Shown here piece after piece: positions 2,318-27,439 of a stretch of 64,000 bases of DNA; the stretch's first letter is position 1, and each line of letters opens with the position of its first letter. The notes beneath the pieces were generated by a model that was given only the letters and a program-made list of their open reading frames with translations, ran no database searches and was not told the DNA's origin. Position numbers and translations under genes: made by a program. The stretch comes from Dacryopinax spathularia (lineage: Eukaryota; Basidiomycota; Dacrymycetes; Dacrymycetales; Dacrymycetaceae), in contig JBBPFI010000011.1 in NCBI GenBank assembly GCA_037974965.1, forward strand, positions 620,001 to 684,000, read 5' to 3'.

Positions 2318-5300
2318 ATGTCCACCCCTCTTCGTTCGTCTAATGTTGCTGGGCCCTCGAGGCCAAGAAGCTTGATACTTGATATGCTTGATGGCAAGAT
2401 GAATATCCCAGCTACGCTCCCCAAGGCGCAGAAGCGCGTTCTTGACGTGAGGAAGGAAGCGCCGGGAAGCGCTGTGCCTGCAAAAAGACCCTGGAGGTTC
2501 GGAGAAGTCAAGAACGAGTTCGAAGACGACGACGACGAGGATGAAGACGTTGTCGACTTGACTATTGACGATGACCCGCTCCCGCCCAGGAAGAAGGTCA
2601 AGGCTGAGCCGGTTGCGACGGCGGTGAAGAAGGAGCCGTTTTGGGCAGTCGTGAGGGACGAGGAGGAGGATGTGATTGATTTAACGAGCGATGAGCCGAG
2701 TCCGGCGAAGGAGCCGAAGAAACTTGCGCCTCTCTTCGTCAAGCGTGAAGAACGTGCCGCCCCGAAGGCTTCGACAAGCGCTCCGGTCGCCCAACTACCC
2801 ACACCGACACCTGCGCCTGTCAATACCCCGGCTGCGGGCGGCGGCCTCAGCACCGCACGCCTTGAGCAAATTTTGGTTGCTATATTGCGAGACCAGAAGC
2901 GGGTCGCCTTGGAGCTCGCTGAGGCAAAACTGCGTGCAAAACTGGATGCCGTCGTTTCCAACAAGCCGCCAACGAGGCGAGTGATTGAGCAGAAGGAGCG
3001 GGAGGTCAAGGCCTTGAAGGATCAAGAGAGGAAGGTGAGAGGCGAGATCGCAGCGGCTCAGGCATGGCAGCCACGATACAACGCCCTGCGTGAGAAGGCG
3101 CTGAGTCAGCTTGGCCTCCCTGTTGGGCTGGCGAAGAAGGAGGAGCCCGACGATGAGGGTATGCTTGACCGGCTTGCGTCGCGCATGCCTGGTCCTTCTC
3201 GTCCTGCCTCCGGCGCGGCATCCCCACTTCCTGCTGGTAGAGCGCCTGCTCTGCCCCAGCCTCCGCTATATGCACCTCCTGCTCCCCGCCCTCCTGTTGT
3301 CCAGCCTCCTGGCGCATTCCCAGCACCCTACCAGCCAACGACGTTACCCACAACAACTCAGCAACCTCAAAACCCCTTTGACTACCTCGCAAAAACCGTC
3401 GGAAATAGCCTGAGCGCCGGCTTCAACGCCGTCCAGAACTTTGCGCACGCCGCCGCTGGGTACGTACCTGGTGGAAGCATCATCGGCGATGTCGTGGACC
3501 AGTTCGCGAATGCGGGAACTTCTGCCTTTGGACGGAACAGGCAGTGGGACGATGAGATGTTGTATGATGGGTATGGGGTGAGAGACGCCGATGCGTACGT
3601 TTACTTTCCTATTTACGCAGATTGATGGTGCTCAACTCAATATTAGGCTGAACAAGTTCATCATCGCTGCTGGGAATGCTGATGTTTTTGATGGTACGTC
3701 ATGCATCCGGCTGCCCTTCAGACTGCTAAGCATGATTTTAGCGAGCGCTAGTGTTCAAGAAGCGATGAAAGGACTTGGTCTTGAGAATCAGCAGCAACTC
3801 CTACCGGGTATGGACTGCGCATTGCTACCTCATCAGCTCATCGCTGTCAAATGGATGTATGATTTGGAAACGAACAAGAAGTACGTTGACCCTTACTCCA
3901 CATGAACCACGATAGTGACTTTGCGAAAAGGCTCAGGCGCAACGGCGGCATCCTAGCCGACGAGATGGGTCTTGGCAAGACGGTCCAGATGATCGCCCTG
4001 ATGTGCAAGAACCCAGCTACCAAGGACGGCCCCAAACCGACTCTCATCGTCGCGCCCGTATCCTTGCTCGAACAATGGAAAGCCGAGATCATGGACAAGA
4101 CCGAGCGCCACCTCAAGGTCCATATCTATCATTCTTCCAATCCGTACAAGGCGAAGCGAGCCGATTGGCTTGCGGAGCACGACGTCGTTATCACCACTTT
4201 CGGTATCCTATCAAAGGAGTTCCCGAAGGGGATGATGGTTCAGCAGAAGCCTACGCCAGAGGACATGGAATATCTCATGGCGCGCAAGGCTGGACTGCTG
4301 TACAAAGTCCGATGGCGCCGGATCGTCCTGGACGAAGCGCACACTATCCGCACCCCTCAAACCCGAGTCTCGCAAGCCGTAACGCACCTCGACGCCCTCT
4401 ACCGCTGGTGTCTCACCGGCACACCAGTCATAAACAGCCTCGAAGACCTGTACGGCTACTTCAGGTTCATCCGCCTCAGACCATGGAACGACTGGAAAGA
4501 ATATGCGCAGCACGTCGTGCGTATCCAGAAGAAACAGCCGAACCTCGCCGCGGATAGGGCGCAACATATCCTCCAGACGTGCTTGCTTAGGAGGCAGAAG
4601 AACTCGATGCTCGATGGGAGACGGCTGATTGAGTTGACTAATAAGGAGGTCGTGCAGATTGTGTTGGAGTTCAGTAGGGAGGAGAGGGAGATTTATGAGT
4701 ATGTGCAGGGGAAGGCTCAGGCTGTGTTTAATCGCTATCTGTGAGTGCTTCACCCGTCTTACTGTATGCCAATACTGAGTTGGACCAGACGTGCTGGAAC
4801 GGTCCTGAAGAACTACTCGCACAGTACGTTTATCGGCATTTCTTTGGGTTGACCGGTGCTGATAGCACATATAGTCCTCGTCCTCATCCTGCGTCTCAAG
4901 CAACTCTGCTGCCACCCCGCCCTCATCCAGGAGCAAAAGGACGACCCCGCAATAATGTCCGCGACAGAAGACGAGAAACAGCAAAAAGACGAGCTGCATC
5001 GCGCTATCCAACTAATGGGACAGCCGTGGGTCGACCAGCTGAAGGCGAGGCTGCTTACCGTCATGGCGGAGCGGGTGAAGGCCGAGAAGCGGGTGAGTGG
5101 TGTTCTATCTTGGATGTTGGATGATGGCTGAGAAAGGTGCAGTCGTTGGACGAGGAGGTCGAGAATGACACGTGTCCCGTGTGCTATGATACGATGGCTA
5201 GTCCTATGGTTACTGCTTGTATGCATACGTATTGCCGAGGTGTGTTCCCTATTGCCCTCGCTCCCGACATGTGCTTACCCGCGAATTCGTGCAGACTGAG

Positions 5301-6985
5301 TGGATAAACTCTTCGAGAAGCCGATGGAACCGAGTCCTGAGTTCAAGGCGGATGAGCGTCCCTGTAAGCCCAATATACTAATTTCGGTTGACGGCAGCTC
5401 ACCTCCATCTAGGTCCAGCGTGCAGGCAGCCCATCTCGCAAGAAAAGCTCTTCGGCCGCTACGCTTTCGAGCCCTCCGACAAAGACCTGAGCAACCTCAT
5501 CGGCGAGCCATTCGAAGAGGTTAAAGCCGAGCTTGGGGTGAAATACGAAGAGCCTATCGAGATCAAGGATGAATCCGACGACGATGACATGCCCACTTTG
5601 AACGAGCTGATGGTCTTTGGGCTTACGCCGAAGGCTCGGAAGGGGAAGGCGGTGGTCAAGAAGGAGACGAAAGAGAAGGTGCGGGTGAAGAAGGAGATGA
5701 AGGGGAAGCGGCGGAGATCGCTGTCGTCTAATTTGGATGAGAAGGGGATGGACTCGGATGACTCGATGAACGATTTTATCGTCCAGACGTGCGTTACTCA
5801 CGCCGATCGCATGCCTTCTAGTATTGACTTAATTGTAGGGACGAGGACGAGGACGAGAAAGACCGCCGGAAAGCAAAGAAGAAGGGCAAGCAACGTGCGA
5901 CGGTCAAGGCTGAACCTGTTTCTGACGATGAGCCCATCGTCATCGACGACAGTGACGAGGAAGACGTCAAACCTGTCAAGCCTGCCAAGTCTAAGCCATC
6001 GTTAAAGGAGATGCCGAGGATGAGTCGGTTCTTGCCCTCTACAAAGGTGTGTTCTCAATCTCCGTATCTCATGCCCATGTACTGATTTCCGTATATAGAT
6101 GAAGGCGAGTTCTTCTCCTGCGCTTTGGGACCCGCGGCTGACTTTGTCGCAGCGTATGATGGAATCCATCAAGCTCTGGGCGGACCAATATCCGACTGAC
6201 AAAGTGATGGTCATATCGCAGTTCACGAGCTGTCTCGATCTCGTCGCCCGATATCTGGACGAAAACGATGTCACCTACGTCCGGTACGCCAGCCTTACTC
6301 ATGGGAGCGCATACATGCTAACGTCATGCAGATATCAAGGCAACATGAAGAAGTTTGACCGTGACCAGTCCGTTGTCGATTTCCAGCGGAAGAGAGGCGG
6401 TCCGAGGGTTATGCTCATGTCGCTGAAGGCGGGCGGTGTTGGGTGAGTTGATCTGCTCGAGCTCTGGCGAAGGCGTCTAATATATTCCAGTCTGAACCTC
6501 ACACGCGCTAATCGGGTTATCGCATTGGATCTGGCTTGGTCAGAGGCTGTTGAAAACCAGGGTTCGTCTTGTTGCTATATGCGCGATCTTCGCCTGCTCA
6601 TGAGAGCCTCTCAGCGTATGATCGCGTACACCGGCTTGGTCAAACGAAGGGTGAGTCTTCCCACTTCGTGAGGGGCGCGGCAGCTGAACGGGATGCGTTA
6701 GATGTTCTTGTGGAACGGCTCATTATTCAGAACAGCATTGAGGACGAACTGCTCAAGATACAAGCGCGAAAGGTGCGCACATCGGAGTCCAACAGTCAAC
6801 CTCGCCTAATATCTCGTAATAGCGCGACTTGGCTGATGGTTCACTTGGTGAGGGAGCACGAGGGAAGATTGGGAGGCTGAGCATACGGGAGATTGCAGCT
6901 TGTGAGTTTTCTGTCGTCCGTTATGTGACAACAAGACTGACGGCCTCCGACAGTGTTTGGTATACATGATTTGCGGCGGCGTTAG
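2318..6985 (+). CDS. SNF2-family ATPase/translocase with RING finger (Uls1/Rad5-like), paralogue A
   Basis: Predicted 1266 aa from 18 exons: 2318-3594, 3647-3693, 3742-3880, 3937-4740, 4789-4823, 4875-5092, 5143-5239, 5301-5363, 5413-5788, 5839-6046, 6099-6104, 6153-6283, 6332-6442, 6491-6561, 6615-6650, 6702-6772, 6823-6901, 6954-6985. The acidic N-terminus carries SUMO-interaction-type motifs VVDLTIDDD (78-86) and VIDLTSDE (119-126), Lys-rich NLS-like patches and psi-K-x-E sites, then a likely coiled coil (~190-265). The ATPase core shows DEMGLGKT (Walker A), LDEAHTIR and [14 protein letters not shown] insert (CPVC, CMHTYC, CPAC) and the helicase C lobe (QFTSCLD, LKAGGVG, HRLGQTK) follow. 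This layout fits a nuclear SUMO-targeted ubiquitin ligase/translocase. One RING cysteine codon appears to be TGA (see findings); the map uses an acceptor that skips it. The junction at 3881-3936 could also end at 3915. Confidence 0.88.
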
Positions 6986-7237
6986 TCGTCGCTTGATTAG
7001 CTCGAGCTTGACAATTTTCTTCGTTCAACGGTGTATTTGGGACATACAGCAGGGTATACCAATGATTCATACCCCTTGCGCTCATCTTGCGCCCGACCAG
7101 ATGCTTTCCAGCGACTTCTCAGCGCATCATGTGATCTCACGTGCTTTCGCGCACGCGTAGGTCTTAAATCTCCTCCTGAGCAATCACCCACACCCATCTC
7201 TCTCTCCTTTCTTTTCGTTCTTCTCCTGCCAGAAGGC

Positions 7238-10200
7238 ATGACTACTAAAGACCTTCGGAAGATCGCAGCTCATCAGCTAAATGTTCCAGTCGAACAGGTG
7301 CGTCCCAACACCAATCCCGGACACACAGATCGTTGACCAGGCGCATATACGCAGGTACCCGAGGACTATATCCGCCAACTTCACCGATATCCTAATGCTT
7401 CTGCGGAAGACGCGAATGTACAACACGTCCTATATGCGCCGTTCTTGGACTGAAACTATCTACAGTTCAGAGCCGTCCTCAGAGGCGGTGATGGGTGTAT
7501 GCTCGGCAGGACTCACTGCAGTATGCACCCGAGCTGATCTAGTGTAGTCGGTATCGTTCACTGCAATGCATGCAATACTTCTGTCAAGCTTGGGAAAGAT
7601 GTCACGCGGGTAGACTGCGGTCTTTCAACCGGTATTGGGAGCTTGGAGGAGTTCACGGTGTGTCCGCTTCTTCATGATACCAACACAAGCTTAGAGCGCG
7701 CCCTTTCGCAGAAACATTGCAATGGTCCAGATCACAAGGCCCGTGTGTCACTATCTTATCGTTCAAGTGGTAGCAGCTCGCATCGGAATGGCAATGGCGC
7801 TCATACGGGCCAACGACATGAAGTAGATGCGAACAAGGGAGTACTGAAGACCTCTACTGCTGCCGTAAGGGCGCATATATCTGAATATTTTTGACTTACT
7901 GACGTCTTCATTACGCAGCCCCGTGTTCTCCATGCTGATCCTGCCCTTTCTCGTACATCTCGACTTCTGCCGACCTGGTCTTCCACCAATTACAAGCGAC
8001 TGTCGGAGGCGGCCCTCGGCGAACAAACGGCTCGAAGCAACAAACGCCCTAGACTGGAAGTTGAATCTGGTTCGGAAGCGCATACAACCTCGCAAGGGCC
8101 TGTCGCATCCCCGGACATCGGAGCTGGAGGTGAGAACATCTACTCAGCAAGGACGCTTTTTGTTACTGACGCGACCGGCCATCAAGGAACAGACATGCGA
8201 GCCGAAAGCCCTGAGCTTGGAAGCCCTCCCCGCCGCTCCCACAACCCAACTTCGGCCGTGCACTTGACCTCCTTGCCCGTCAAACCGCTGCAAGTTTTCG
8301 ACCGCTCCCTTGCGAGTTCGACCTTTCCGTTAGCGCATACGCCGACAATTACCCAAGCCTATCCTACTGGCGTTACGCCTGCCTGGAGCTCGTCGGATGC
8401 AGGAACGGGATCAGCTTCGCTCAGCGCTATGACGGCTGTTACCAACTCGGTCCCTCCGCCTGTGGAAACCGTAACGTCCAATGCGCTGTCTGTCGTCGGT
8501 GCTAGCGCTCGGGGAGACTCAAAGGGTGGGCTCGATGTATGGATCCAAAATGCAGCTACTGCCGATGTCTTCGAAGGTATCTGTTATCACGTTTCATTCC
8601 ATCGATCCCACTGATGTGCTGCCTCAGAAAACATAACAGTCCAATCATGTATGCAAAAATTGGGCCTCACTCAGCAAGGGCGCAAATTCCCCGGGATGGA
8701 AATCTCTCTGTTGCCCCATCAAATCATGGGCGTAGCATGGATGCGTGAACAAGAAACCTCGCAAAGGTAGACACTCTTTCGCACACTTCGAGCTTCCTTG
8801 ACAAACTTGCAGCATTGGACATTTTGGCGGTATCTTGGCCGACGAGATGGGGCTGGGGAAGACCGTACAGATGATCGCTACGATGTGCATAAATCGCCCA
8901 CCAAACGGGAAACCAAAAGGGACTCTGATCGTATGCCCTCTGGCACTACTGGACCAATGGAAAGATGAGGTACGGACGCACATCCAGATGCGTCGAACCT
9001 GTGGCTGAGCCCAACTCAGATCGAAACGAAAACAACCGGACTGTGGACTTATGTCTATCATGGTCCCAGCCGAGCTAAAAATCATCGTCACCTTCAGCGC
9101 TATGATGTGGTGCTTACGACCTATCCCACTCTGTCTCTCGATCTCCCCACATCCTACGAATTGAAGAAGGACGAACTTCCTGATGATGGCGTGCGGGAAG
9201 CACACAAACTCGGGCCGCTACTACGCACTCAATGGTACCGCGTTGTACTTGACGAAGCTCAAATTATTCGCAGCGCAAAAAGCCGTGCCAGCTCCGCCGG
9301 TTAGTACACCGCAGAGTGGGATCTTTTCTACGGCAGCTAATTTGGATCTTAGCTGCACGCTTGCAATCCACGCTTCGCTGGTGTCTGACAGGGACGCCCA
9401 TTGTGAATAGCCTGTCGGATGCCTTCCCTCTTCTGAGGGTCCTGCGCATTCGACCTTGGTATGATTGGCAACATTTTAACAGCATGATAGTGAAGAATGA
9501 GCAAAAGCATGCCAGTCTCTGTGGCAAACGATTACAGGGCATTTTCAAGTCTTGCCTCCTACGACGCACCAAGAACAGCACCCTCGATGGCCGGCGGCTC
9601 ATCGAACTACCTGAGAAGAAGATAGACACCGTCATCATGGAATTCTCTCAGGAGGAGCGCGAGATCTATGAAATGATGCAGAAACGCGCCCAGTCTGTAA
9701 TCAATCGCTTCCTGTGAGTCCAACTGGAGAATGTTACCGTGACTTCGAGATGAACTCTTCTCAGACGCGAAGGAACCGTCCTCAAGAACCATTCGCATGG
9801 TGAGTGGACCATATTGCCATGGGGAAGCTTTGTTCAGATTGGCGCAGTTCTCACGTTGCTCATGCGTTTGCGTCAATGCGCATGCCATCCCGGTAGGTCG
9901 CACAGTGTAATGGAACTGCAAGCGGAACTCACACACCCGGCTAGCTCTGATCCAGGAGGATTATGACGAAGCGACTCTAGAAGCTCTGGATGAGGAAAGA
10001 AGACAAGAGGAGTTGGAAAGGGCCGCGAAGCTTGTCTCGTCCAGTTTCGTCGACGAGGCTGAACTGCACTTCCTGAACATCGCAAAGAAACGAGTTCAGC
10101 TTGAAAAGGCTGTGAGTGTTCATCGTGTTTGATGTAGTCTTGCATGGCTGATCGTCTGAAAAGTCGCTTAACAATGTGCTGGAGGATGACTGTCCGATCT

Positions 10201-11770
10201 GCGACGACATTGTTGACGAAGGAGTGTTTCCCTGCTGTCTGCATGTTTTCTGCCATGGTATAGTCCGCCATATCTTTTGGATGGGCAGTGAGCTGATGGT
10301 GCGGTCAGCATGTGTTCAAAAGCTTTTCGAAAAACCCATGGAGGAAGGGGCTAAGTCTTCCTCGAAAGAGCGCCCATGTATGTCGCTGAAAGATATTGTA
10401 GCTGTGCAGTCGAAACTTACTGGTGGTCAGGCCCCAAGTGTGGCGTCCCATTCAAGAAAGAACTCGTTTTCTTGAGAAGCGCCTTTGAACCCTCCGATCG
10501 CGATCTGGCTCAACATGCAGGAAATAGTCTCGGTCCAGTGGAACGATGGCCTATCCAGAACGACGATCAGCAGGAAGGGAGAGCCAAGCCACAGACCAGG
10601 GACAGGGGACGCTTCGTTGGGGGGGTGGAGATACCGGATCTTCAGACAGATTCCGAGAGCGAAACTTCCATCGATGATTTCATTGTTGGGAGGTGAGTCC
10701 CCACAATATGGCCACTCGTTGCCCGCTGACATGATATCGCAGTGACGAAGACGAGGAGGAGAAAGACCGCAAGAAGGCGGCCAAGAAGAACAGGAAAGCT
10801 CGTCACGGCAAAATCCGAAGGACATTGTCTTCCACGTGGGGCTCTAGTGGCACCATCAAGAAGCCAATGGCGGGCTCCAGAAGGTTTCTGCCCTCGACCA
10901 AGGTATGCTTTAGGCCTGCCAGCAAGCCGTATTCTGAAAATATGTCCAGATGAAGGTGAGCCGTACAGCCCTGGCATCGCACCTAGACAACCCCTCATTC
11001 CCAATCAGGCCATGATGAAGAAGCTCAAATCGTGGAAGAGGGAGTATCCTGACGACAAAACACTCGTCATTTCGCAGTTCGTTGGTGCACTGGACGTCGT
11101 GGCTGGCTACCTGCAGGAGCAGCGGTTTGAGTTCGTTAGGTTCGTCGTGGAATGCCTTTGTCTTGATCCTGTGTATCCTAACAACGTGTGCAGATATCAA
11201 GGGGATATGACAAAAGCCGCCCGCGAGAGCGCCGTCAAGGAATTTATGAAAAGCGGCGGTCCTACAGTGATGTTGATGTCGTTGAAAGCAGGCGGGATGG
11301 GGTCGGTGTTTTCTGCCCGCTCTACTGCATGCAGGTCTGACCGGTTAACAGGCTCAACCTTACTCGTGCCAACCGCGTTATTTCTCTGGACTTGGGATGG
11401 TCTGAAGCAGTAGAGGCACAAGCTTTCGATCGTGTTCATCGCCTTGGTCAGACCAAAGGTTAGTCCCAGTTGGTCTGTAGCTTGCATTGCTCACGTGTCC
11501 CGCAGAGGTGCTTGTCCAGCGCCTCGTCATCAGTAACACAGTCGAGGAGCGTATCCTGGCCCTGCATGAGCGCAAGGTAAGTGCAGGTGTGCTTGTGCTC
11601 CAGCCTCGCTAATCAATGCATAGCGAGGGCTTGCAGATCAATCGCTCGGTGAGGGGAGCGGGAAGAAGCTTACGAAGATGTCTGTGAACGACATGTTGGA
11701 CCGTGAGTGTTTGTTCGTCGGCATGTCATGCTGTAAATCTGATCGATATTCAGTGTTTGGGATGAGTTGA
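7238..11770 (+). CDS. SNF2-family ATPase with RING finger, paralogue B
   Basis: Predicted 1121 aa from 24 exons: 7238-7297, 7355-7417, 7466-7494, 7543-7657, 7712-7864, 7919-8576, 8628-8766, 8813-8969, 9020-9299, 9353-9713, 9765-9799, 9848-9892, 9945-10111, 10164-10257, 10309-10377, 10431-10692, 10743-10902, 10950-10955, 11009-11139, 11194-11301, 11352-11458, 11506-11576, 11624-11702, 11754-11770. Starts [14 protein letters not shown]. An N-terminal module with C58, C61, H91 and H97 is shared with paralogue C and absent from A. The core has [16 protein letters not shown] (DEAQ, not DEAH), LTGTPIVNS, a complete RING ([18 protein letters not shown]) and the C lobe (HRLGQTK). It begins 252 bp after paralogue A. 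A 57-nt stretch inside exon 6 (8130-8186) has intron signals and is a multiple of three, so a form of 1102 aa is also possible. Confidence 0.87.
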
Positions 11771-12188
11771 ATGTGGACAGGAAATCCTAGTACTATTACT
11801 TCACTCGGAAGATCGTTGGACATTATTCAGAACGGCTGTAGTTACAGTACCTACAGAATGCATTATTATCGTCTGGGCCAGACTCGCGGCGCAGACATCG
11901 TACAGGACAATACTTGTGACAAGCAAGCGGCCATTGATGCTGAGGCCGGATTGTGTGCATACTTGCTTCGACCGCTGCCGCGGTCCGGCACACATAGCGT
12001 CCTGCTCACAACAGAGCTCGCGGGTTCTGCGGCTGCCTTAACGTTTCATCGCTGGGTATGTATTTGATGGTATCGCTGCCGTGCAGTGAAACGAGACTAA
12101 AGGCTATGGCATCGATCAGAACACGACATCACGACAAAGGAGACAACAGACGCACCGATGAACTCATGTCGGCTCAACACACGTCGTC
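11771..12188. other. Intergenic between convergent genes
   Basis: About 420 bp between the stop of SNF2 paralogue B (+) and the stop of the Rrg7-like gene (-). It should contain both 3' ends. I see no further gene, repeat or RNA. Confidence 0.5.
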
Positions 12189-13040
12189 TCACCCCAACTC
12201 CAACTCCTCCTCCTCCTCCGACCCCTCCTCAAACTGAGTCTCCGGCGGAACCCAATTCCTCAATTTCTTCCCGCCCCACCAAAGTCCCGGCCTCCCCACA
12301 TCACCCGCCTTGCCCCCTCTCTCCCAGCGCAGCTCCCCTTCACCCCTAAGCACCCCATTCTCCCCTCCGAGCGCAGCGTTCCACATCGCCGTCCCTATCT
12401 GTCCGTCCCCTTCCAGCTCACTTCCACTTCCACTCCCGCTGCCCTGACCTCCGGGAGTAAAGGAGAGCGGAGGGAGGTACATGAGCATAAACGGCAGCGG
12501 GCTCGACATCGCTCTCAACAGCGTGGACCTCGTGAAATTAGATTGCGAGACGAGCAGCGCCACGGTTGGCGTCTGCATCTCCATCTCCCATCTCTCCGAC
12601 TCCTGTGTACTGGGTGTATTGGTGGGGTGGGGCCGACGTTGTTGCTGCAGCCCGTGGAGGTTGAGCGTATGTAGGACGCCTTCCATTTCTCGTACGTAGT
12701 TTGGGCCCATCTTTTTCGTTTCGGCTTTACATTGCGCTATGACCCTTATCCTCCTCCTCGCTCCACCTTCCGGTGTATACAGTACGCCCATGGCCGAAGC
12801 CGAGGCTGAGGCTGAGGCTGAGGAGGTGGAAGGGGTACGAGACGCGGAAGGATGGGATGAAGGAGGAGGCAACCACCACCAGCCCTGCAAGTCGATCCCG
12901 CCGTCGCTTGCTCCCCCTACTCGGCGCAAAGACATAGACAGGTTGGTTTGGAGGAGCCGGCGAGATCGTTCTTCGAAGGCGGTACCGCGGTGGACTGTGG
13001 AGAGGACAGCGGTCCTCAGGGCGGCGGGGGAGGCGGCCAT
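12189..13040 (-). CDS. Rrg7-like mitochondrial nuclease-fold protein (DUF2034)
   Basis: Single-exon gene of 283 aa starting MAASPAALRTAVLS. The core GTAFEERSRRLL, then GGASDGGIDLQGWW, then VIAQCKAE, matches the PD-(D/E)xK restriction-endonuclease fold (E near residue 23, D in GGIDL, E/K in QCKAE). This is the arrangement of the Mrr-like Rrg7/DUF2034 family, which in yeast is needed for respiratory growth and is mitochondrial. A hydrophobic LMYLPPLSF segment and an acidic tail close the protein. A Ser/Ala dipeptide-like stretch sits between the Asp and QCK motifs and is probably a lineage-specific loop. The first ~40 residues contain several Arg and Ser but are not a textbook presequence. Fold assignment is good; the mitochondrial role is inferred from the family. 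Confidence 0.75.
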   Translation of the reverse strand: MAASPAALRTAVLSTVHRGTAFEERSRRLLQTNLSMSLRRVGGASDGGIDLQGWWWLPPPSSHPSASRTPSTSSASASASASAMGVLYTPEGGARRRIRVIAQCKAETKKMGPNYVREMEGVLHTLNLHGLQQQRRPHPTNTPSTQESERWEMEMQTPTVALLVSQSNFTRSTLLRAMSSPLPFMLMYLPPLSFTPGGQGSGSGSGSELEGDGQIGTAMWNAALGGENGVLRGEGELRWERGGKAGDVGRPGLWWGGKKLRNWVPPETQFEEGSEEEEELELG

Positions 13041-13493
13041 TCTGTATGCTTGGGAAAGGGTGAGAGAGGACAGGAGAGAGGGTTGGGTGATCGGTCAGGC
13101 CGGCTGACTTTGAGGGAGGAGGCAGGGAGGAGACGATCGATCGAGGAGTTTTTGCGATGAGGACGGGAATGGAATGTTGCACGAGACCCTAATGACTCCT
13201 CCGTCCTCGCTCATGCAACGGCTCTGTTCATATCCTAGTATTTCTTACTCATCTTGTTACAAAAATTACTATGGCGGAGACAGCGCCTTCTGTCGTTCTC
13301 TAGCTGCTGTCAATGAACCCTGGATGGTTGCCGATCAATCGTTACCTCTGCGAACTGTCGAGAAGAGGTCGCGCACGCTTCGATCCACGACTAGGCGGGC
13401 AACAGATCTGGTTCGTACCTTCCACCGCATTTACGCAGCGAAGAATGCTAATATAATTCCCACAGAATACTAGAGTACATCCACCACAAGACC
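13041..13493. other. Intergenic, no gene seen
   Basis: About 450 bp between two minus-strand genes. It must contain the promoter of the Rrg7-like gene and the 3' end of the sugar transporter. No conserved motif recognised. Confidence 0.45.
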
Positions 13494-15248
13494 CTAGGCG
13501 TGAATATCCTCGCGATAATGGATCGAGCCCTTCTCCGGATCGGGCGACTCCTCCCCGGTCCGCTGCTCGTGGTCGATCGCCATCCTGTCCGCCGCGGCAT
13601 GCTCGTCGGCGTCTTTCTGGAGCTCGGCGACTTCGTCCGCGCCGTCGAATAGCATGGCGGTCTCTTCGAGTGTGAGGCCGCGGGTCTCGACGACGAAGAA
13701 GTAGAGGAAGGTCAGGATGGCGACCATGAGGCAGTCGAATACGACTGTGGAGAGGGTCAGCGGATGCGTTTGGAAAGAGAGGGGAATCAGGACGTACTGT
13801 AGTACTTCCAGCCCATTGTGCCTAGGGCGATCGGGTTGGTGTACTGGTTCAGCACCTGGGACGAAGCCTGGGTGATAGCCCAGAGCGAATGCGCCTTCGA
13901 CCGCATCGACATCGGCACGATCTCGGTCACGTAGAGCAGCATGACGGACGACCAGCCCATAGCGTACGAGCCCGTGAACAGGAAGATGAACAGGAGCACA
14001 AAGTCGCCCGCGACGGCGCTGTGCGTGATGTTGTACTGCGCGGAGCAGATCGTGACGCAGACGAAGAAGAGGAGCATGAGGCTGGTCGAAGTCAGGAGAA
14101 TACGACGACGGCCGAATCGGTCAGAGTGGAAACCAGCTGTGAAGCCGCAAATGAAGTTGAACGCCGTCAGAGCCAAGTTGAGCCCGAGCTGCGAGGGCCG
14201 GTCGGTGATGCCGATCGTCTTGAGCACCTGGGCGAGGTAGTACGTCACGAGCGAGTTGCCGGACCATTGGCCGGAGACGGCCAGACCCATCATGATGAAC
14301 GACCGGCGACGCATGCCCTTGGAGTTGAAGAGCGACTTCCATTGCGTGCGCTTGTTCTCCTTCTCCTTCCGGACGGACTCCTTCATTTCCTCGAACTCGT
14401 AGAGAACGAGCGGGTCATGCGGGTTGCCGCGTCCGTGGTAGTAGACGAGCGTATCCCATGCCTTCTGCTCTTGGCCGCTGAGCATGAGCCAACGCGGAGA
14501 CTCGGGGCCGAACATGATGAGGCAGAATTGGATAGTCGAGGGAATGACTTGGACGAGGGCCGGAAGGCGCCATGACCAGGAGGAAGCGAAGTAGTAGGTG
14601 CCGAAAGTCAATGCAGCGGCGCTAAGATGATGTCAACACTTGAAACGGTCACAATCACTAAGAATCCAACTCACATGATGGAGCCAATGCCGGTGAAGGA
14701 GTTGTAAGAGCCAGCAATCGCATGTCTGTGCGACGGGAAGCAGAGCTCAATGACCATGAGCGGATCAGCATTGTTGTTGAAACCACCGCCGAAACCGAGC
14801 AAGCAACGACCGCCAAGGAACCAGTTGACGTTCTTGGCCGAAGCCTGGAGAGCCGCGCCAGTAATCATCATTGTCGTGCCGAGCATCACAGTCTTCCTCC
14901 GGCCGAATCGGTCGTTCCAGAGCGGAGCAACGGGGATGGAACCGAGAGAGCCGATGTTCTGGATAGCACCGAGAAGACCGAGAGTAGAGCCGGTTGGGTT
15001 GTTGAAGTCCTTGAGCCAGTATGGCAGAATTTGCATGCCGGAGACGAGAGCACCATCGTAGCCGTTAGCGCAGTTGCCCAGAATGCTTCAAGTTCGTCAG
15101 TCTCAGGCTCATTTGATGCTTATCCAACAGGGACGTACTAGAGACATGTCCAGAACATCAACTTCCAGATACGGGGATGCTTCCACCATCTGAAGTTAGG
15201 GTCGATAAGCTGTTTGTAATGTCCAGCGATCTGCGCTCCGCCGGCCAT
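13494..15248 (-). CDS. MFS sugar transporter (lactose-permease-like), 531 aa
   Basis: Exons on the minus strand: 15139-15248, 14675-15085, 13798-14621, 13494-13744; all three introns are 53 bp. Starts MAGGAQIAGHYKQL. Major-facilitator sugar-transporter signatures appear in order: GYDGALVSG after TM1, DRFGRRKT in loop 2-3, PESPRWL after TM6, DRFGRRRI in loop 8-9 and ETRGLTLEET after TM12. Length and 12 hydrophobic segments fit plasma-membrane proton-sugar symporters of the lactose permease/quinate-like group common in fungi. The hydrophilic C-terminal tail (~65 residues) is rich in Asp/Glu. The substrate cannot be told. The promoter lies to the right (from 15249) and has GC palindromes described separately. 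Confidence 0.9.
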
Positions 15249-15402
15249 GATGGGCAAGATACGCGACTAGGGAGGGCAGAAGGAGGGTGGTGAAGGTAGG
15301 GAGGGTAGCCGGGGGAAGAGCTACTCGGGGTGCCAGTCATTGTTCTGAGGCGTCTTTAAGTGGGGAACTGAATTGGAGGAAAGTGGAAGCAGAGACGGTA
15401 CG

Positions 15403-15414
15403 GCGGGGCCCCGC
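15403..15414. promoter_or_regulatory. GC palindrome in transporter promoter
   Basis: Perfect 12-bp palindrome GCGGGGCCCCGC about 155 bp upstream of the transporter start codon. GCGGGG matches the SYGGRG consensus of CreA/Mig1 carbon-catabolite repressors on both strands. A second copy, GCGGGGCCCC, lies at 15658-15667. Repressor binding is inferred, not shown. Confidence 0.4.
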
Positions 15415-17620
15415 AAGTGATCACTGGGTTGTTCCTGACTGGAACAGGCAGGTGGAGGAGGCACCACCACCCCTTCCCTTCATTGCCCTGAGCAGGACGG
15501 GGATAGGTCCCATGGGCGTACGGTGGTGGCCGCAATTGAAGCGGACTGACTTGAAGGGCCGCTGCCGTTGGTCCGTGCCGTCTGACAACCGAAGCTACAG
15601 TTTGATTCCGGATCACAATGAAATTCGATTGGTTCGGTTGCCACGCGACCTGTCGCTGCGGGGCCCCAGATTGCCCATCAAACTTCCTAATTCAGCCACC
15701 CCCACACGGACCCTTTCTTGTTTGCACGCAGTCTCACCTTTCATTCCGCTTCTGACCACTTGACTCTCGCTGTTCCAATTAGGCTTCAGCCTGCTATGCC
15801 ATGTTTCTATTCAAATCTGGTTCTGGTGGAGGCTCATCAGCTGCCGTTGCATGGTCCCCTGCTCGCTGGTCGGCTCATCCTGCCCTCCTCCACCCTGCAC
15901 ATGTCCCCTCTGTCATCGAGCATTCGACAGGCCTTGGCGCACATTTCCCCAGAATGCAATAACCTTCTGATCTTGACAGCGGACAACCAAAATAGGCAAT
16001 AGGCTTCTTCTTCTTGGACTGGCGAGCTTCTTTGGCTTCCTCCACTGTCGATCGTCCGGCGCATGTTTTCCGCCTCAGGCTGAGATTTCTGCATGCTCCA
16101 CTATCTTCTACCCTTGCGTCGTCCGGTCACGCTCGTGATAATTGTCGGGCCGTACCGCCCTTTCTCACGCAGCGACGAGCTTCTGAAGTTGCGTCATGCC
16201 GAGATGGCGATGCTGATCAACTCCGCATTATCGAACTTCTACCGATATTCAGAAGTCGACCATGGCTTCTCCACTTTCACAATATAACAAGTCTTTATCA
16301 ACGCATTGTCGTCTGGGCTAAAGATCTTCCACCGCCCGGTCAATACAGACTGCTATATTTAGGCTATGCTTATGTCGGTCAATGTGCCTCCACGTACGGC
16401 CCACTATTCCTCGCTCTCCCATTGGTCAACATCTTGCAACATACGCGTCGTGCAAGTTACTCTGCTACAGGTGTGGTTCAACAGCATTACCGGCTTTCGC
16501 TAGGCGCGAACATCGGTTCTTGGCACGTCAACAACTCCGGTTCCTGGCCGTTGACAGGCAGACTCACGCAGCCTTCGCTAAGCGCCCGGATGCCCGGTCG
16601 CAACGGCTTAAGCGCTGGCACAGGGTCATTCTTGACCCATCATGTGACTCCGCCTGAAGGGGTACCGGCGCGCTGTTACCGGAGCAAGCGTCGAGCTTGT
16701 CGACTGCTACCGCCTCCACCTCCAGCCTTGCTCTTAGACCCAGCAGCGAACGTGTAGAGGCGGACAGCCAGCAGTCCCGTGCTTGCACTCATGTGACCGA
16801 GGACAAATGGGTCACTTCCTGCGGAACAAATCGTCGCCTCAGTGCCACAATTTGTAGCCTCCTCCCCAGTTGTATGTTTCCAACCTTTGCCCCTGGCGGT
16901 CTGTCTACCCGATGATCGTGGATATCTGCACTCTTGCTGGTTTACTGATTGGCGCCGGTTGGTCAAGCACTCGCCTCTGATCAACGCCATCAATCCTCCA
17001 CTGGTCGTCATGGGCTTCTGGTCGGTATCCCAATGCACACGCGGCTCGGATTCCTCGATTCTCTCCAGGTCCGCTATACTCCCATGGCTCCCGTGCACCA
17101 TCATGTGGCTCATCGGCCAAGCCCTCGCGAGCGCTCGCACGACATAGCCAGGCCAGTCCGTCAGTGGAGAATTGGTAGCGCACCGCCTGAGTTGACAACG
17201 TGAGCTTCGGGCATGTCTTCTCGCCTCTGTGGAAGCCGCATGTGAGATGGTACAGTATACTGCTGCCATGACTCCACCCTACTCACACGGTGGTGGGTAT
17301 CTTATCTGGTCAGACTGTGGTAGTTCACCTTCGTGACGACTGAGCTGTTAGTGTACTGCTACATTTGCGCGACCAACTGATCGCAAGAAACACACGTGCC
17401 TCAACAAGGGTTTCATGTGTGTGTCCAAGATCTCCACCTTGCGCTTGAATGGATCACGAGATCGTCCCCCCTTCGCCTCTCAGCCGGCCATCTGTACGCA
17501 GCACACTACATACGCTACAATACGATGTAGATCTTGGAGTGCGATACCTAGAGAGTGGAGAACGAGCGCGTCTGAAGGGTGGAGTTTTTGCCCGACTCCA
17601 CCTCTTCATAGCAAGGTCCC

Positions 17621-17674
17621 CTCCTCCTCCTCCTCCTCCTCCTCCTCCTCCTCCTCCTCCTCCTCCTCCTCCTC
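17621..17674. repeat. CTC trinucleotide microsatellite
   Basis: About 18 uninterrupted CTC/CCT units. On the other strand it creates a run of Glu codons inside an otherwise meaningless open frame. Confidence 0.95.
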
Positions 17675-17924
17675 TCCACCGTCACACGTGTCCCGTTCCA
17701 CAAAGTGATGACCGTCCTCCATACTCGTCGACATCGTTGTACGGCCTTTCCGGCCCAAAGACCAGCCGATCTCACCTGATCCGTCCTCGCGGCTGCCACG
17801 CCGGGCGGCAGAAGCATGTGAGCAGGGCCGTTGATACTTCATACGTCCCATCGCCCTCCTCCTGTAGGTCCTCCACCCTCCCACGTGTTTCCGTCCACCC
17901 GTGGCGTTCAGAAGTAAGGTTGTT

Positions 17925-18840
17925 GCTAGGCGTGATGCATGCTTCGTCTCTGGCCGGCGGTTTAAAGCTGTCCCGACAATGATCGTCGCCACAGCGAAGC
18001 CGTCCGGCATCCTCATCCACACGCACTCTCCACCTTCACACGTGCTCGGTCTTTTTGCTCGGCGGTAGAGCAGCAGGTGGTATCCACCCCTCAGCTGTGA
18101 TACGGCCATACGTCTCTGCCGCGCCGGTTGGCGTCGAAATGCCTGGTCAGTCAACCGAACGGTGGAGAGCGGAGCAGTTGTTCGTTTTGCTGAAGTCTCG
18201 TGGCGGAGTGGAGTGGTGAGTTTGGGGCGAGCTGTGTTGGGGCGTGGGAGGGAGGGGGTGGGTTGGCCCCTGTTCTCTTCCATCAGTCTCGTCTTCTGCC
18301 CACCTAGAGTCACATACCTATTCTATGCGCCTTCTAGTCAGGTGTTCCGCTCGGTCGTTGTCCCCAGTCGGCAATTGAACGAGCGGCCTCTGCGGACGGC
18401 GATCATCCCAATAGCGAAGCCGACCGGAACGCTCATCCAATAGGAACTCTTCACCATGACAAGTGCTCCATCCACTTGCTCGACGGTGGCAGGTGGTCGT
18501 ATTCACTCCATCGCTGGACGACCGTGCATCTCCACCACGCCAATCCGCGTACCAGTGGCTGACCATCCTGCACGGAACAGTGGAGGACAAGGCGGTCGAA
18601 TAGTCGCCGCGAACGTCTCGTGGAACGGTGGAGCGCTGATTGCGAAACGACCTCTGCTCGGGCGCTGGAAGGCGTGGACTCCCTTTTCTCCCCATCAGCT
18701 TCGTTCTTGCGTGCACATGTTGAGACGACCTACGTACCTCTAGGCACCACGGCTCCCGGTGTTCCACCCGAACGCGTTCTCAAGTTTCAGATCGAACGAG
18801 CGGCCGGAGTCAACTTTCACAAGCAGACTGGATTCTGTTC
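17925..18840. repeat. Diverged tandem repeat, unit about 418 bp
   Basis: At least two diverged direct copies plus part of a third. Anchor motifs recur at constant spacing: agcgaagccg at 17993 and 18413 (420 bp apart), and ggtgttcc at 18341 and 18758 (417 bp apart). The latter is followed about 40 bp on by gaacgagcggcc in both copies. Intervening stretches (ctcatcca, cttcacca/ccttcaca, ggtggtcgtat/ggtggtatcc, catcagtctcg/catcagcttcg) also line up in order. Not coding in any frame I could follow. Function unknown. Confidence 0.7.
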
Positions 18841-21126
18841 ACACATCTGCAGTCCAACGCTTTCTTCCCAACCATGGACCTCATGCCGTCTCACTAGCTC
18901 GTCTCGTTGAGCTGTTTCCCCGTCCTGGCCAACTTCGAGAGTCGCGAACCGCTCTCAACTCAGTACAAACGACCGTTCGATAAGCGGACCGCTGTGCTAA
19001 GGTAGCTTTGAAGGATGTTGGACACGACATCTAGAGGGCTATACGGTGGGTCGCTCGGGTAGTAGCGGGAGGACGATTGAGTCTGTGGTCCTATTCAAGT
19101 AAGTCAGTGATAGTGGAGGGAACGACGGGTGACGGTATACCTCAGTGGTTGTATGGATAAGATACCGAGTCGAAGACAGATGGATGGGTGCGCATATATG
19201 CTCTGTGCCCGAAACGGCATTGAGTTACGTTCATCAATTTCATCGTGCGACCAAACATCTTTGCCAATATCTTGGAATTCGTTGATTGTCGACTTGCGAG
19301 AAGGTGCACGACCATCTTGAACTTGGACACCGGAGCTTGAACATCGACCTGCCTAGTTCGTCAGCACGAACGGATCCTATAATATCCAGCGTATGGGTAC
19401 CAGGTCACCAGGTGGACGCTCACGCTGCGCGATTCTTCTGTGTCAATGCGTTCATCTCCTCCCGTGAGTTTCCAGCATTCATCACGAAGAGGGGAAGACG
19501 AGTTGGAGACGGCATTAGCCATAGCAGGAATAAGACCAGATTGACTTACACTCTATGCCGTCAATTCCTCTCACTTCATCGAGAATAACGATCGACATTT
19601 GTACCATCACCCTCGACCCCGCTCCAGCCCGGATTGCCCTACCATTGTCCCGCGCTTGAAGTACAACCAATAGCACCACCATGCAGCCAAGACTCCCGAG
19701 TAGGAAACCGCGGTACAAGCCATCAATTGTGTACAATGTGTTTGACCTTCACTGCCGATATGATTGGGCAAGCAGTGCGATGTCAAGATGTAGAGCGTCT
19801 GAGCCTGGTGGGTATGCCAGTTGAGGGATGATCCGATAAGTAACGCAGGACGGAGACGAGGGTATTAGGTCGAGTTGCACGAATTCCGCGTCGGATTGGC
19901 AAATAGAACGAAGGTACGAAGAGAGCGGAGCGAGAGAAGGTAGGTCCAGCAGTAATGCCTCTAGCAGAGAAAAGCAAAGGCGGATTAATATTGTGCCAGT
20001 CAAAGCACCGAAAGCTCGTGTCTAACATGGACGCAGGACGCGCGTAGAACGGCGTCGGGAGTGCTCGCGTCGCGCTGCACGTGATCATAACGCGATCCTG
20101 ATGATCGCAATCGACGAACAAGACTGTCAGAATGAGCTGCATACCACGATTTGTGTTCTGACTGGATTTGGCACTGAGACATGATCGAATTCCCTTTATG
20201 TTGGCTTCTTCATGAGTTTGGTGGACCGATGGATGCACTTCGTTCACTGGAGTCGAAACTTGGTCGACCCTCACGCCTCGCAATCCTCCACCACCCGCTC
20301 CTTGAGCATGTCAACATGAATCATGTGTTCAAACCGATCTGCCACAGTCATCTTGTCTCATTCCAGGCCCGGGGATAACAGGATATTACACTCTGTTGGC
20401 GACGCACTCATCGTCTTCTACTCACTCTCACTTCATCTTGAACCTCCGTTCTGGCCACACCTCCAGCATGGCGATTTGTACCGCTCACCTCCTTCCTCTG
20501 ACAACATGCCATCCAGCATCCGACAATAAACACTTCCCACCTGGCTTTGAACAACCTGGACAGGCCCTTGACTGCAGCTCGAAGGTGCAACAATCTCCCT
20601 TGCTCGCGGTAGCTAGCCGTATCTCTGTCAACTGTGGCGACACGAGCGGGGTTCTCCTTCACACGACTCGAGCCTGGCAGAAGGTGGACGACTGCAGCAT
20701 CCTTGATCAGAAGGGTTTTGTGGAGGACTCGGCGGAGAGAAGGGCCAGTGGGAGGATACATCGGAGGTTGGCGCGCAACCAGCTTGAGGTCGAGCATGAG
20801 AGGAGTTCAGAGCAGTGTGGTCGCGTGATTGGTCTCAAGTATCTCAGTATCCTGTTCAACGTGTATGCATATGGTTGACAACCTGTCAGAGCTGCAGAAG
20901 TGCTATGAGCCACTGGCCGTAGCATTCAGCAAGCGGTTGCAAGCATGCTTGTCCAAGCGCATATCCCTCAGGGCTTTGTTCTGGAAGCCGCCTTTGTGAG
21001 TGGCTTTGCACGTGAGAGCACGTGCTTGGAGTTAGGCAGTGCTGACCTTCATAAGGAGGACACGGTCCTCAGCGCTCGCCTTTCTTTCGTCTTTCGATCT
21101 GCTAAGGCCCACATCTGTCCTTCATT
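18841..21126. other. Gene-poor block, right part
   Basis: About 2.3 kb with only short scattered frames. I looked for remnants of an SNF2/RING copy (GLGKT, TGTP and HRLGQ equivalents) and saw none. The last ~150 bases, including pyrimidine-rich runs just before 21127, probably act as the promoter of paralogue C. Confidence 0.5.
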
Positions 21127-24100
21127 ATGACTGCTGATCAAGATCTTGTCCGTACTGCTGCACGACAGCTTCATGTCCTTAGGCATGAGGTATGCATACA
21201 AGCCCATACTCCACTCGCCTCCTGCTGACCTGAGTCGCATATATGCAGGTTCCCGACGACTATATCCGACAACTTCGCAAACATCCGGACGCCTATGGGC
21301 AACATGCAGATGTTCGTGTCTCGGTCATCAAACATGTTGGATGAGACATTGACAATACAGGTAGTTCTCTCTGAGATGCCGTGCTGGTGCCGGCTGTATG
21401 TCTACCCTGAACTCTGCGAAATGTTGCATGTATGCTGATACTTATCCTTGCAGATGGACGGGTAACCTGCTATACCTGTGATAGCAAGATAGATCTGGGA
21501 AAGGATCCTACACGGAAGGATGGAGGCCTTTCCATCGGTATTGGTAGTTTGGGCGCATATATAGTGGGTGCGGATACGATCAGAGCCCTTTTACATAGTG
21601 ACTCCGCTTTAGCAACATTGCCAAGGAAGCAAGCATACAAACGCGAAGTCACCTGCAAGCTCTAAAGAGATTCTAGTAAGCTGTCACATGCATTTTGAGA
21701 GGACGAAGTTGACATGTGCCGCTTCAGTCGAGCACCATGAAACACAAGACGAAGTCACAGCCAGATGTATGCACATATTTTGTGATGTCTTTCCATACGC
21801 TTACCAGTCCACAGCAACCCAAATCTCAAATTCGCAAGATCGCTCAAATCTCAGTACAGTTGTCAGCTGCTGCATCCCACGGCGCCGCTGGCAAGAGGCG
21901 ATCAGAAATCTATCCGCAGGAAGTAGATAGGACCGTTAAGCGAGTCAAGATTGAGCCAGGTCTGGAGTTTACACAAGCTGGTAAGCCAATCATGAAAACC
22001 TCAATGCGCATCTCTGATTGAACTGAATTCGGCGTTAGCCAGTAACTGTGGCATCGCTGGTGATGCGGACGATGACGACATTATCTCTGGATCTGACGAC
22101 GACTCATCATATGGAATCAATGCCTGGCTTCGGGATGCTGCTAATGCCGAGTCTTTCGATGGTCGGTCATCTCATACTTCCATCCTTGATCGTAACTCAG
22201 TTTCGTCTAGAAAGTGACACTTTGCAAGGCTGCATGAGAAAGCTAGGCCTCGACGAAACCAATCAAAAACTTCCCGGCATGACGGTCTCACTGTTCCCGC
22301 ATCAGATATTGGGTGTATCTTGGATGTATGAGCAAGAACTTTCCGCAATGTGTGTGCCAGTGTAAAGCCCAGGTGTGGTCCTGATGAGTCTATGTTCAGG
22401 TATTCCGGCGGTATCCTCGCCGATGAAATGGGTCTTGGCAAAACTGTGCAAATGATCGCCACCATGATGCTAAATCGACCTTCCGATGAGCCTAATCGCA
22501 CTTTGATCGTATGCCCGCTTGCCGTACTCGATCAATGGCGCATCGAGGTACGTATCCTCGGTCCTCACATAAGGTCACACTGACGGCTTTATAGCTGGAA
22601 ACGAAGGCAGAAAGCCCTTACAATATTGCCATGGTCTACCATGGCCCGAACAGGAAGAGATTTGCAAGCCAGCTTGGACTTGCTCACACTGTCGTTACGA
22701 CCTACAATACTCTGGCACTTGACTTGCCTCATTCTGCTATACTGCAGAGCGGCGAGCTTCCTGATACTCTATCCGATGAGGACAAAACGGAGTTTGGCCC
22801 GCTGCTGCGCATCAACTGGTTTCGCGTGATACTGGATGAAGCACAGTACATAAAGAACCGTAGAGCTCGCGTGAGCTCCGCAGGTACGTGCACAATGCAC
22901 CCATTTGACATGCATTAGCTGACTTGTCCTTCAGCCGCCCGCCTACAGTCTCAGATTCGCTGGTGCCTTACCGGTACACCTGTCATCAACAGTCTGGCGG
23001 ACACTTTCTCCCTGTTTAGAGTTCTGAGAGTTCGACCCTGGTACGAATGGTATCTTTTCCGGAGACAGATCTTGGCAAACGAGCGCAAGCAACCGGAGTT
23101 TGCTGGAGCACAGCTGCAGAGCATATTCAAGCATTGGCTGTTACGGCGGAAGAAGGACAGCAAGCTCAATGGTAAACCGCTGGTGCAGCTGCCCAGCAAA
23201 ACAATCGAGACGGTCTCGCTCGTGCTGTCGGGGGAGGAGCGGGAGATATACGACATGGTTGAGAAACGGGCCCAAGCTGTCTTCAACCGATTTCTGTGCG
23301 GCACATATTTCTTTTCTGCTGGAGGCCATTTGCTGATGCAAGCTATGTATGAAGGCGTGCGGGAACCGTTCTCAAGAACTACAGTCATGGTTCGTGTCTT
23401 GATAGTCAGGTACTGCGTGGGTGGGAACTCACTTCCTCAGCGTTCACCCTGCTCCTACGCCTCAGGCAATGCGCATGCCATCCAGGTGCGTCCGTTATCT
23501 TGGGCAGATGTCCATCACCAACCATGCCTGCTGTAGCGCTCATTCAGGAGGGGCGCGGAAACGGGGTCGTGGAAGAAATTCTGGATAGGCAGCAGAGACG
23601 TGAAGAAGTTAAACGAGCAAAAGACCTTGTATCTCGCCACTTCGTTGAAATGATCAAGAACCGTCTACTGCAAACCGCCTTGAAGCGCATCAAATCAGAG
23701 GTACGTCAATCACTTACCGCCAAGACGAAAGAATCTAATAGTTGCCTCAGTCTCTTGACGAGACCATTCAGGATGACTGCGTGATCTGCAACGAGACCAT
23801 CACAGATGCCGTTGTCATACCCTGCCAACATGCCTTCTGCAAAAGTCAGTTCAGCATCCCATCGATTTCGCGTGAGCAAAATCTTTGAGCTAACGAGAGT
23901 AGGTTGTGCTCTTGCCTTATTTGATGGGCCTAATGAGGATGGGACTGCTCTTTCCCCTGATCAGCGGCCTTGTAAGCTGGTCAAAGCGCTTCTCGTAAAC
24001 GCACGGCTAATGCGATCCTCCAGGTCCCACCTGTGATCAACCTTTCCGCAAAGAGCAAACCTTCCTACGGGCTGCTTTTGAGCCTTGCGATTCTGATTGC

Positions 24101-25153
24101 ATGAGCGGTGACGATCCCGCCACAGAAGACGGCATCAGCGAAGCAGAAAGTGATAGCGGTGAGGCACACTAACGCCTACATTCTGTCTGTAGACACGGTG
24201 AGCTGAAACCTCGTTAGAATCGGAAAACGGTTACCTGGGTTCAGCTGGAAGAAAAGCTAAGCACTTCGTCCCGTCGACCAAGGCGAGCCTTTTCAGCCTT
24301 CTAACCAAGCGCTTTCGCACTAAAAGCTCTTGCAGATGAAAGTGAGATATAATCTTACCGGCAGCTTTACCACGTGTTGATTGGAACAGCACATGATGAA
24401 ACTCCTGAAGACTTGGAAGCGTCAGAGTCCTGATGACAAGACCATCATTATATGTCAATTTGTAACTGCTTTGGACCTTGTTGCCGAGTACTTGACGGAG
24501 AATGACTTCTTCGTTGTCCGGTGCGCCCCTCATCCTTCATGTTACCCTCAAAACGCTCACACAGCACAGTTATGACGGGAGCATGAACCTAGACGCTCGG
24601 GAAAATGCGGTGAAGGATTTCATGGCCGACCAAGGACCCACCGTGATGTTGCTGTCACTGAAGGCTGGCGGTGTCGGGTGCGTGTCAGTGCTTGCGATCT
24701 TAATCTCATGGTGACTTTTGTCATCAGACTGAATCTCACTCGAGCCAACCGTGTTATTCTTCTGGATCTGGGATGGTCCCAAGCTGTGGAAGCCCAAGCT
24801 TTCGATCGTGTGCATCGTCTTGGTCAGACAAAGGGTGCGTATTCCCGCGCTTATCGCCATTTGACACTCCATGACGTTCTCGCCTGCAGAGGTGCTGGTT
24901 AAAAGACTCGTAGCCACGAACACTGTGGAAGAGCGGATCCTCGAGCTGCAGGCGCACAAGGTACTCTACCCAATAACCTCGCAGAATGCGTTGCTGACCG
25001 CACACAGCAATCACTGGCGGATCATTCTATGGGGGAAGGCAGCGGGAAGGCGCTCGGGAGGCTCACGGTCCGCGATCTAGCCATGCGTGAGGGAAATTCT
25101 GCTCTGCAGCGGGCGAGGCTAATCCAATGACAGTTTTTGGCTGCGACATCTGA
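21127..25153 (+). CDS. SNF2-family ATPase with RING finger, paralogue C
   Basis: Predicted 907 aa from 26 exons: 21127-21189, 21249-21311, 21365-21395, 21454-21563, 21613-21675, 21728-21766, 21815-21980, 22039-22161, 22211-22349, 22400-22547, 22595-22883, 22935-23295, 23355-23389, 23441-23485, 23537-23700, 23751-23844, 23903-23971, 24024-24158, 24218-24282, 24336-24341, 24390-24520, 24570-24677, 24728-24834, 24890-24960, 25008-25086, 25134-25153. Starts [15 protein letters not shown]. It shares the C58/C61/H91/H97 module with B, then a basic KRVKIEP patch and an acidic DADDDD stretch. Motifs: [16 protein letters not shown] (DEAQ), LTGTPVINS, a full RING ([17 protein letters not shown]), LKAGGVG and HRLGQTK. 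The linker between the RING and the C lobe is shorter than in A or B. Exon 3 was placed by comparison with B. Confidence 0.87.
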
Positions 25154-27118: not shown

Positions 27119-27439
27119 CGTCCTCAACCTCAACCTCTAGATTTTCTAAGCAGTTACTGTTGACGTTGCGAAAGGCACGAAAAAGTCGCGCCGCGCTCAA
27201 CAGAGAGGAGGAAGGGACTCAGGGTCCCCTTCCGCCGGAAATGTTATCGCCGACTATCGGAGATAAGCGTGGGAACGTGCATCGCGGTTGCTTGTGGTGC
27301 CTACGCGCTAGTAAGGAGTCGAGTCTGTAGGCGAGGCGCTGGCGACCTCCACACCATACATACAGCCTGCCCTGCTCGAACCCATCATCCCAACTACCAC
27401 TCAGCATACCCTAGAGAGAGAGAGAGAGAGAGAGGAGGG
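27119..27439. promoter_or_regulatory. Divergent promoter, RRP42 / acid phosphatase
   Basis: About 320 bp between two divergently transcribed genes. It ends in an (AG)n microsatellite (about 27412-27434) directly before the phosphatase ATG, probably in its 5' UTR. Confidence 0.6.

Follow-up and report, generated by a model that had tools for sequence, protein, structure and literature searches.

Three SNF2/RING genes, here named A, B and C, were found on the + strand of a 64,000-nucleotide stretch of the Dacryopinax spathularia genome (the window, C11:620001-684000), and they form a DNA-level tandem family from one ancestral SNF2/RING gene, with B and C as closest relatives. The contigs of the 29.2-Mb, 24-contig assembly also served as the genome searched. 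On sequence evidence we consider it rather probable that the three are old tandem paralogues that differ in what they are aimed at, A being a RING-broken copy directed to SUMO and B and C RING-keeping copies directed by a finger, with kin near the telomeres.

Gene A (2318-6985, + strand; 18 exons, 1266 aa) was modelled as an SNF2 ATPase with a RING insert, the model splicing round a stop codon; gene B (7238-11770, +; 25 exons, 1101 aa) and gene C (21127-25153, +; 26 exons, 904 aa) carry an N-terminal finger followed by an SNF2 ATPase with a RING insert. The gap between A and B (6986-7237) measures 252 bp, and that between B and C (11771-21126) 9356 bp. Splicing was curated by similarity among the three copies and the core was re-derived with a spliced profile aligner, which recovered almost every core exon of A and C, an agreement that is not independent because the profile was built from A, B and C; the aligner also called one A intron and one C acceptor absent from the curated models. 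An automatic splice predictor was discarded for over-calling introns, at the cost of the TGTP exon in A and of reading frames in both other genes, and a higher intron penalty truncated B and C. Introns of ~50 bp, like the STE3 genes of the genome, are what a fungus would show. The ATPase motifs were present in all three spliced models, among them [14 protein letters not shown] of A (3944..3982, +), and the Pfam domains SNF2-rel_dom and Helicase_C exceeded their cut-offs in A, B and C, placing them in the SNF2 ATPase family. The first-pass annotation had described three + strand genes separated by 252 bp and 9.4 kb, with the same motif order in each; the spliced models gave the same coordinates, strand and gaps, and the order, running from [20 protein letters not shown] through the RING insert to SLKAGG and HRLGQTK, held in all three genes, but A has an incomplete RING.

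The interval between B and C contains, on the - strand, an RRG7-like ORF (12192-13094), in which a weak match to the Mrr_cat restriction endonuclease stays just below cut-off, and a sugar transporter (~13.5-15.25 kb). From the transporter to C (15260-21100, ~5.9 kb) no gene was recognised from the ORF list and a DNA search, in which the 15.26-21.1 kb segment had no match apart from itself and a short repeat with dispersed copies. An element of ~187 bp (20734-20920) lies directly upstream of C and has three dispersed copies with 82-93% identity, and a CTC-type run was noted near 17620-17675. Elsewhere in the window, two ORFs with an RNase_PH domain lie near each other (26723-27136 and 30047-31240, both -).

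Sequence comparison, tree and gene structure agree on the relationship among the three genes. By blastp, B and C were 50% identical over 780 aa, A and B 44% over 861 aa, and A and C 43% over 496 aa plus 55% over 194 aa, the comparisons with A having used an A model that predates the microexon correction. When the core of B was searched against the genome, the closest other genes were A and C (best pieces of 295 and 209 bits, 48% and 53% identity), and the next gene scored 102 bits. In a tree of 13 rows, A, B and C grouped together (99/98), B and C being sisters (100/98), and another tree of the analysis returned the same groups (98/98 and 100/99). The ten other rows were eight paralogues modelled over both ATPase lobes, one further telomere-near copy and Rad5 of K. 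lactis; of the 20 paralogue regions fetched, drawn from a longer genome-wide SNF2 list, 12 with partial profile matches (L011, L013-L016, L018-L020 and L025-L028) were left out of the trees. Introns of the ATPase core were shared at 14 positions by A and B, 12 by A and C and 16 by B and C, and at 0-1 positions between the trio and the paralogues L009, L010, L012 and L017. In the curated models, 13 introns and a 6-nt microexon (A 6099..6104, B 10950-10955, C 24336-24341; all +) were common to A, B and C, and the copies therefore arose by DNA duplication, not by retroposition. GC-AG introns adjoin the microexon in the curated models of A (6105-6152, after it) and C (24283-24335, before it). The branching suggests that A would have split first from the ancestor of B and C, and B then from C.

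A tandem family in which B and C are closer to each other than to A had been proposed from the first reading of the sequence, and in this it was right; its description of the expansion as recent was not upheld. Among codons whose first two bases agree, 128/171 fourfold sites differed between A and B, 109/152 between A and C and 130/195 between B and C (67-75%), and dS was not computable. Synonymous sites are thus saturated, indicating that the duplications are old. This age, together with the ATPase motifs kept in all three copies and the weak support for deeper placement in the tree, is also what would be expected of ordinary ancient paralogues, that is, of a locus conserved across many related fungi whose copies are partly redundant repair translocases of the Rad5/16 type with nothing lineage-specific about them. 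We give that account a little less than an even chance, since the finger, the SIM-type motifs and the state of the RING differ among the copies, which argues against pure redundancy. Searches further afield gave distant matches: 13 loci in viral contigs and 551 confirmed matches in prokaryote genomes, the best 80 of the 551 all bearing bacterial titles, with identities among the viral and these best 80 prokaryote matches mostly near 30% and 41% at the top.

The RING finger is where the copies part most clearly. Eight ligand positions are present in B (10191..10441, +) and in C (23778..24034, +), whereas the degenerate RING of A (5173..5423, +) keeps ligands 1-5 and 7-8 and has lost ligand 6. 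When the conserved acceptor is used (intron 5240-5294), the sixth ligand codon of A reads TGA (5297..5299, +); the codon after the split codon at this conserved RING intron is Cys (TGT or TGC) in B and C and in the three telomere-near copies inspected (L021, L022 and L024). An apparent loss of ligand 6 in the telomere-near T2 copies came from mis-splicing of the RING intron by the aligner, and direct inspection of one of them (L022) gave Cys. The sole in-frame bypass found for the stop of A was a GAG acceptor 6 nt downstream, ending at 5300, by which ligand 6 is still lost; the three models contain 66 introns, with the acceptors CAG (42), TAG (20), AAG (3) and GAG (1), the last being this bypass. 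In agreement, no Pfam RING rose above cut-off in A, and PF00097 passed in B (21.3 against a cut-off of 21) and in C (29.5). The mark of the Rad5/16-like group, a C3HC4 RING complete in its ligands and set between the ATPase lobes, was found in B and C and was absent from A.

Because the other seven ligands are kept, the loss in A must be either young or a sequence error, and the single stop may stem from a sequencing error or from a lesion specific to the strain. If the stop were an assembly error or a rare allele, A would be an intact, Uls1-type SUMO-targeted ubiquitin ligase, an account that fits the retention of 7/8 RING ligands and the fact that the stop was the only lesion met in the A model; the assembly, the sole source here, nevertheless shows the stop, and we rate the account as a real but minority possibility.

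The N-terminal parts likewise divide A from B and C. The acidic N terminus of A carries two SIM-like motifs (2549..2695, +), VVDLTIDDD at 2549-2575 and VIDLTSDE at 2672-2695; two VIDLT-type motifs occurred in none of 2000 shuffles of A (shuffle mean 0.018), and a looser SIM scan of A did not rise above shuffles (P 0.38). The strict scan found no motif in B or C. These two genes have instead a common CxxC...HCxxxxH finger (B 7562..7735, C 21468..21636; both +), within an N-terminal region of ~93 aa that is 46% identical between them and in which the CxxC and HCxxxxH are conserved. At E up to 1, a whole-genome search found the finger in B and C only; it matched no Pfam family, and no PDB chain gave a useful match (best E 0.2). 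The genes had at first been read as SUMO-targeted ubiquitin ligases, a class that combines SIMs and an intact RING in one protein; in the motif scan none of the three combined them, A having SIM-type motifs with a broken RING and B and C a RING with no strict motif, and the reading was not borne out in that form.

Among known proteins, the trio resembles Uls1 of S. cerevisiae and Rrp1/Rrp2 of S. pombe in joining an SNF2 ATPase to a RING, and the gene is likewise duplicated in S. pombe, which has two Uls1 orthologues (PMC8266636). The resemblance extends to the SIM-type motifs of A and to the finding that in the known proteins translocation can outweigh the RING (PMC6614809, PMC8266636, PMC5438191). 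Unlike that group, A, B and C are three linked copies, the RING of A is broken, and B and C lack strict SIMs and carry an N-terminal finger. The best PDB match of B was Rad5 of K. lactis (6l8n), with which the trio shares the order of ATPase and RING; unlike Rad5, none of the three has a Pfam HIRAN domain at E up to 0.1, which sets them apart from the Rad5/HLTF type. The only HIRAN match of the genome was at C15:260.7k, ~1 kb upstream of a Rad5-like ATPase (L017, so named on its HIRAN). By their motifs, we take L012 to be Rad16-like and L009 (C10:387500-393500) to be a Uls1-like SNF2 gene; L009 has a SIM-like ITISDSDGDDD stretch upstream, and at E up to 0.01 Pfam recognised no RING in it.

The simplest reading of these likenesses, that A, B and C are just duplicated orthologues of Uls1 comparable to Rrp1/Rrp2, draws on the SIM-type motifs of A, on the RING placed between the ATPase lobes and on the fission yeast precedent, but L009 (C10:389k) is also a Uls1 candidate by motif reading, shares no core introns with the trio and was not joined to it in the tree, and we hold this reading to be rather unlikely. 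A link to the mating locus, such as the SNF2 gene that flanks MATB in Trichaptum (PMC8970355), was ruled out because the STE3 matches lie on C9 and not on C11. That A is a young pseudogene beside two working copies appears more doubtful still, for its premature stop with the conserved acceptor and its bypass through the single GAG in 66 introns are set against a gene in which no other disabling change was met and which has the highest GC3 of the three (0.66, vs 0.56 in B and 0.54 in C).

At least seven further SNF2/RING copies were located near chromosome ends, 6.6 to 114.5 kb from the contig ends and five of them within 35 kb (C2:9.9-12.3k, C10:1209-1211k, C13:1002k, 1042k and 1070k, C14:28-30k and C6:1809-1811k; L021-L024, L126 and L127 were modelled). 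TTAGGG arrays were found at contig ends among the matches listed and at four ends fetched. Two subgroups were apparent: compared with the copy at C13:1042k, the C2 and C10 copies had 82-84% identity in their first ATPase pieces, the other four 53-54%. In five of the seven, a long ORF with a RecQ-family match, each below the cut-off of that model, lies upstream on the same strand (C14:32370-33497, C13:998555, 1038943 and 1066818, and C6:1805564). Further RecQ-like ORFs were seen near ends of C12, C18, C2 and C6, and another SNF2-like family also occurs near chromosome ends, with nearly equal scores (L128 at C12:1088500-1092800, C12:1097809 and C18:15497). A, B and C themselves lie 536 kb from the nearest contig end and are not telomere-linked.

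Introns connect the trio with these copies. With each of A, B and C, core introns were shared by L021 (6/8), L022 (5/7) and L023 (5/9), for which random placement gave P values of ~4e-9 to 1e-7 under a simple binomial that ignores dependence. With a control profile built from L009, L010, L012 and L017 only, the introns shared by five copies, now including L024, which had been outside the first count of three, numbered 5-7 for A, 3-5 for B and 4-6 for C, of 6-10; this ABC-free profile recovered fewer introns, and A had 7 in common with each of B and C, scarcely more than with the telomere-near copies (5-7). The intron at column 709 was present in A and the telomere-near copies and absent from B and C, a pattern that loss in the line of B and C would explain. 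The tree, which took in five of the seven copies and left out C13:1002k and C6:1809k (L127, modelled), joined the trio with the telomere-near family at 71/82; grouping the family with L009 (C10:389k) instead was not rejected (p-AU 0.10), and grouping A alone with the family was rejected by sequence (p-AU 0.012). On their introns, the trio and the telomere-near family thus likely share ancestry, with weak support from sequence and with either direction of descent possible. The suggestion that the locus was a source of specialised regulators gains indirect support from the introns common to the telomere-near family, as far as kinship goes; on direction, descent either way would fit.

Telomere-linked RecQ helicases offer a further parallel, subtelomeric RecQ helicases being well known (PMC7473861, PMC4466345, PMC10532341). 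The likely SNF2/RING relatives of the trio resemble UTASa of Ustilago and the subtelomeric RecQ of Agaricus bisporus in lying near chromosome ends, most of them with a RecQ-like ORF upstream; unlike the fungal RecQ helicases, these relatives are SNF2/RING genes, and the trio is internal. The word SNF2 was absent from the main text of PMC7473861, PMC10532341, PMC4466345 and PMC8381367, and neither SNF2/RING tandem arrays nor telomere-linked SNF2 families appeared in titles or abstract openings among the matches listed, in a search with most subscription literature outside its scope. A broader proposal, put forward here tentatively and as rather improbable in its full extent, is that the internal tandem array and the RecQ-paired telomere-linked family came from one ancestor, that a repair-type translocase became a second class of telomere-linked helicase, and that SUMO reading (in A) and ubiquitin ligation (in B and C) were parted among the internal copies.

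For the trio itself, the reading of old paralogues with divided targeting would work as follows. All three genes may encode translocases that use ATP to move along double-stranded DNA and push or strip proteins off chromatin, as Uls1, Rrp1 and Rrp2 do. The two N-terminal SIM-type motifs would aim A at SUMOylated proteins, and A would act by translocation alone, because the stop codon removed a zinc ligand of its RING; the stop itself would give either a truncated product or a bypass through the weak acceptor 6 nt downstream. The mechanism for A leans on precedents, from which it is carried over by analogy to A, B and C: in yeast Uls1, acriflavine resistance requires the ATPase, is moderately affected by SIM mutation and is not significantly affected by RING mutation (PMC6614809); in fission yeast, the RING of Rrp1 is mostly dispensable against the toxicity of Rad51 overexpression, though Rrp1 ubiquitylates Rad51 (PMC8266636); and Rrp2 is a SUMO-binding translocase (PMC5438191). 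B and C would still be able to act as ubiquitin ligases, with their own N-terminal finger supplying the targeting. Functions are probably divided among the tandem copies, and the trio and the telomere-near SNF2/RING family would probably descend from the same ancestral gene.

If this is true, the components of a SUMO-targeted ubiquitin ligase would be found naturally separated at this locus, with SUMO-binding motifs and a motor lacking a working RING in A, and a RING, a motor and a different targeting finger in B and C. Whether Uls1-type translocases need their RING, a disputed point, could then be tested on paralogues made by evolution. The introns common to the telomere-near family suggest, in turn, a source other than the known RecQ kind for genes of helicase type at the ends of fungal chromosomes.
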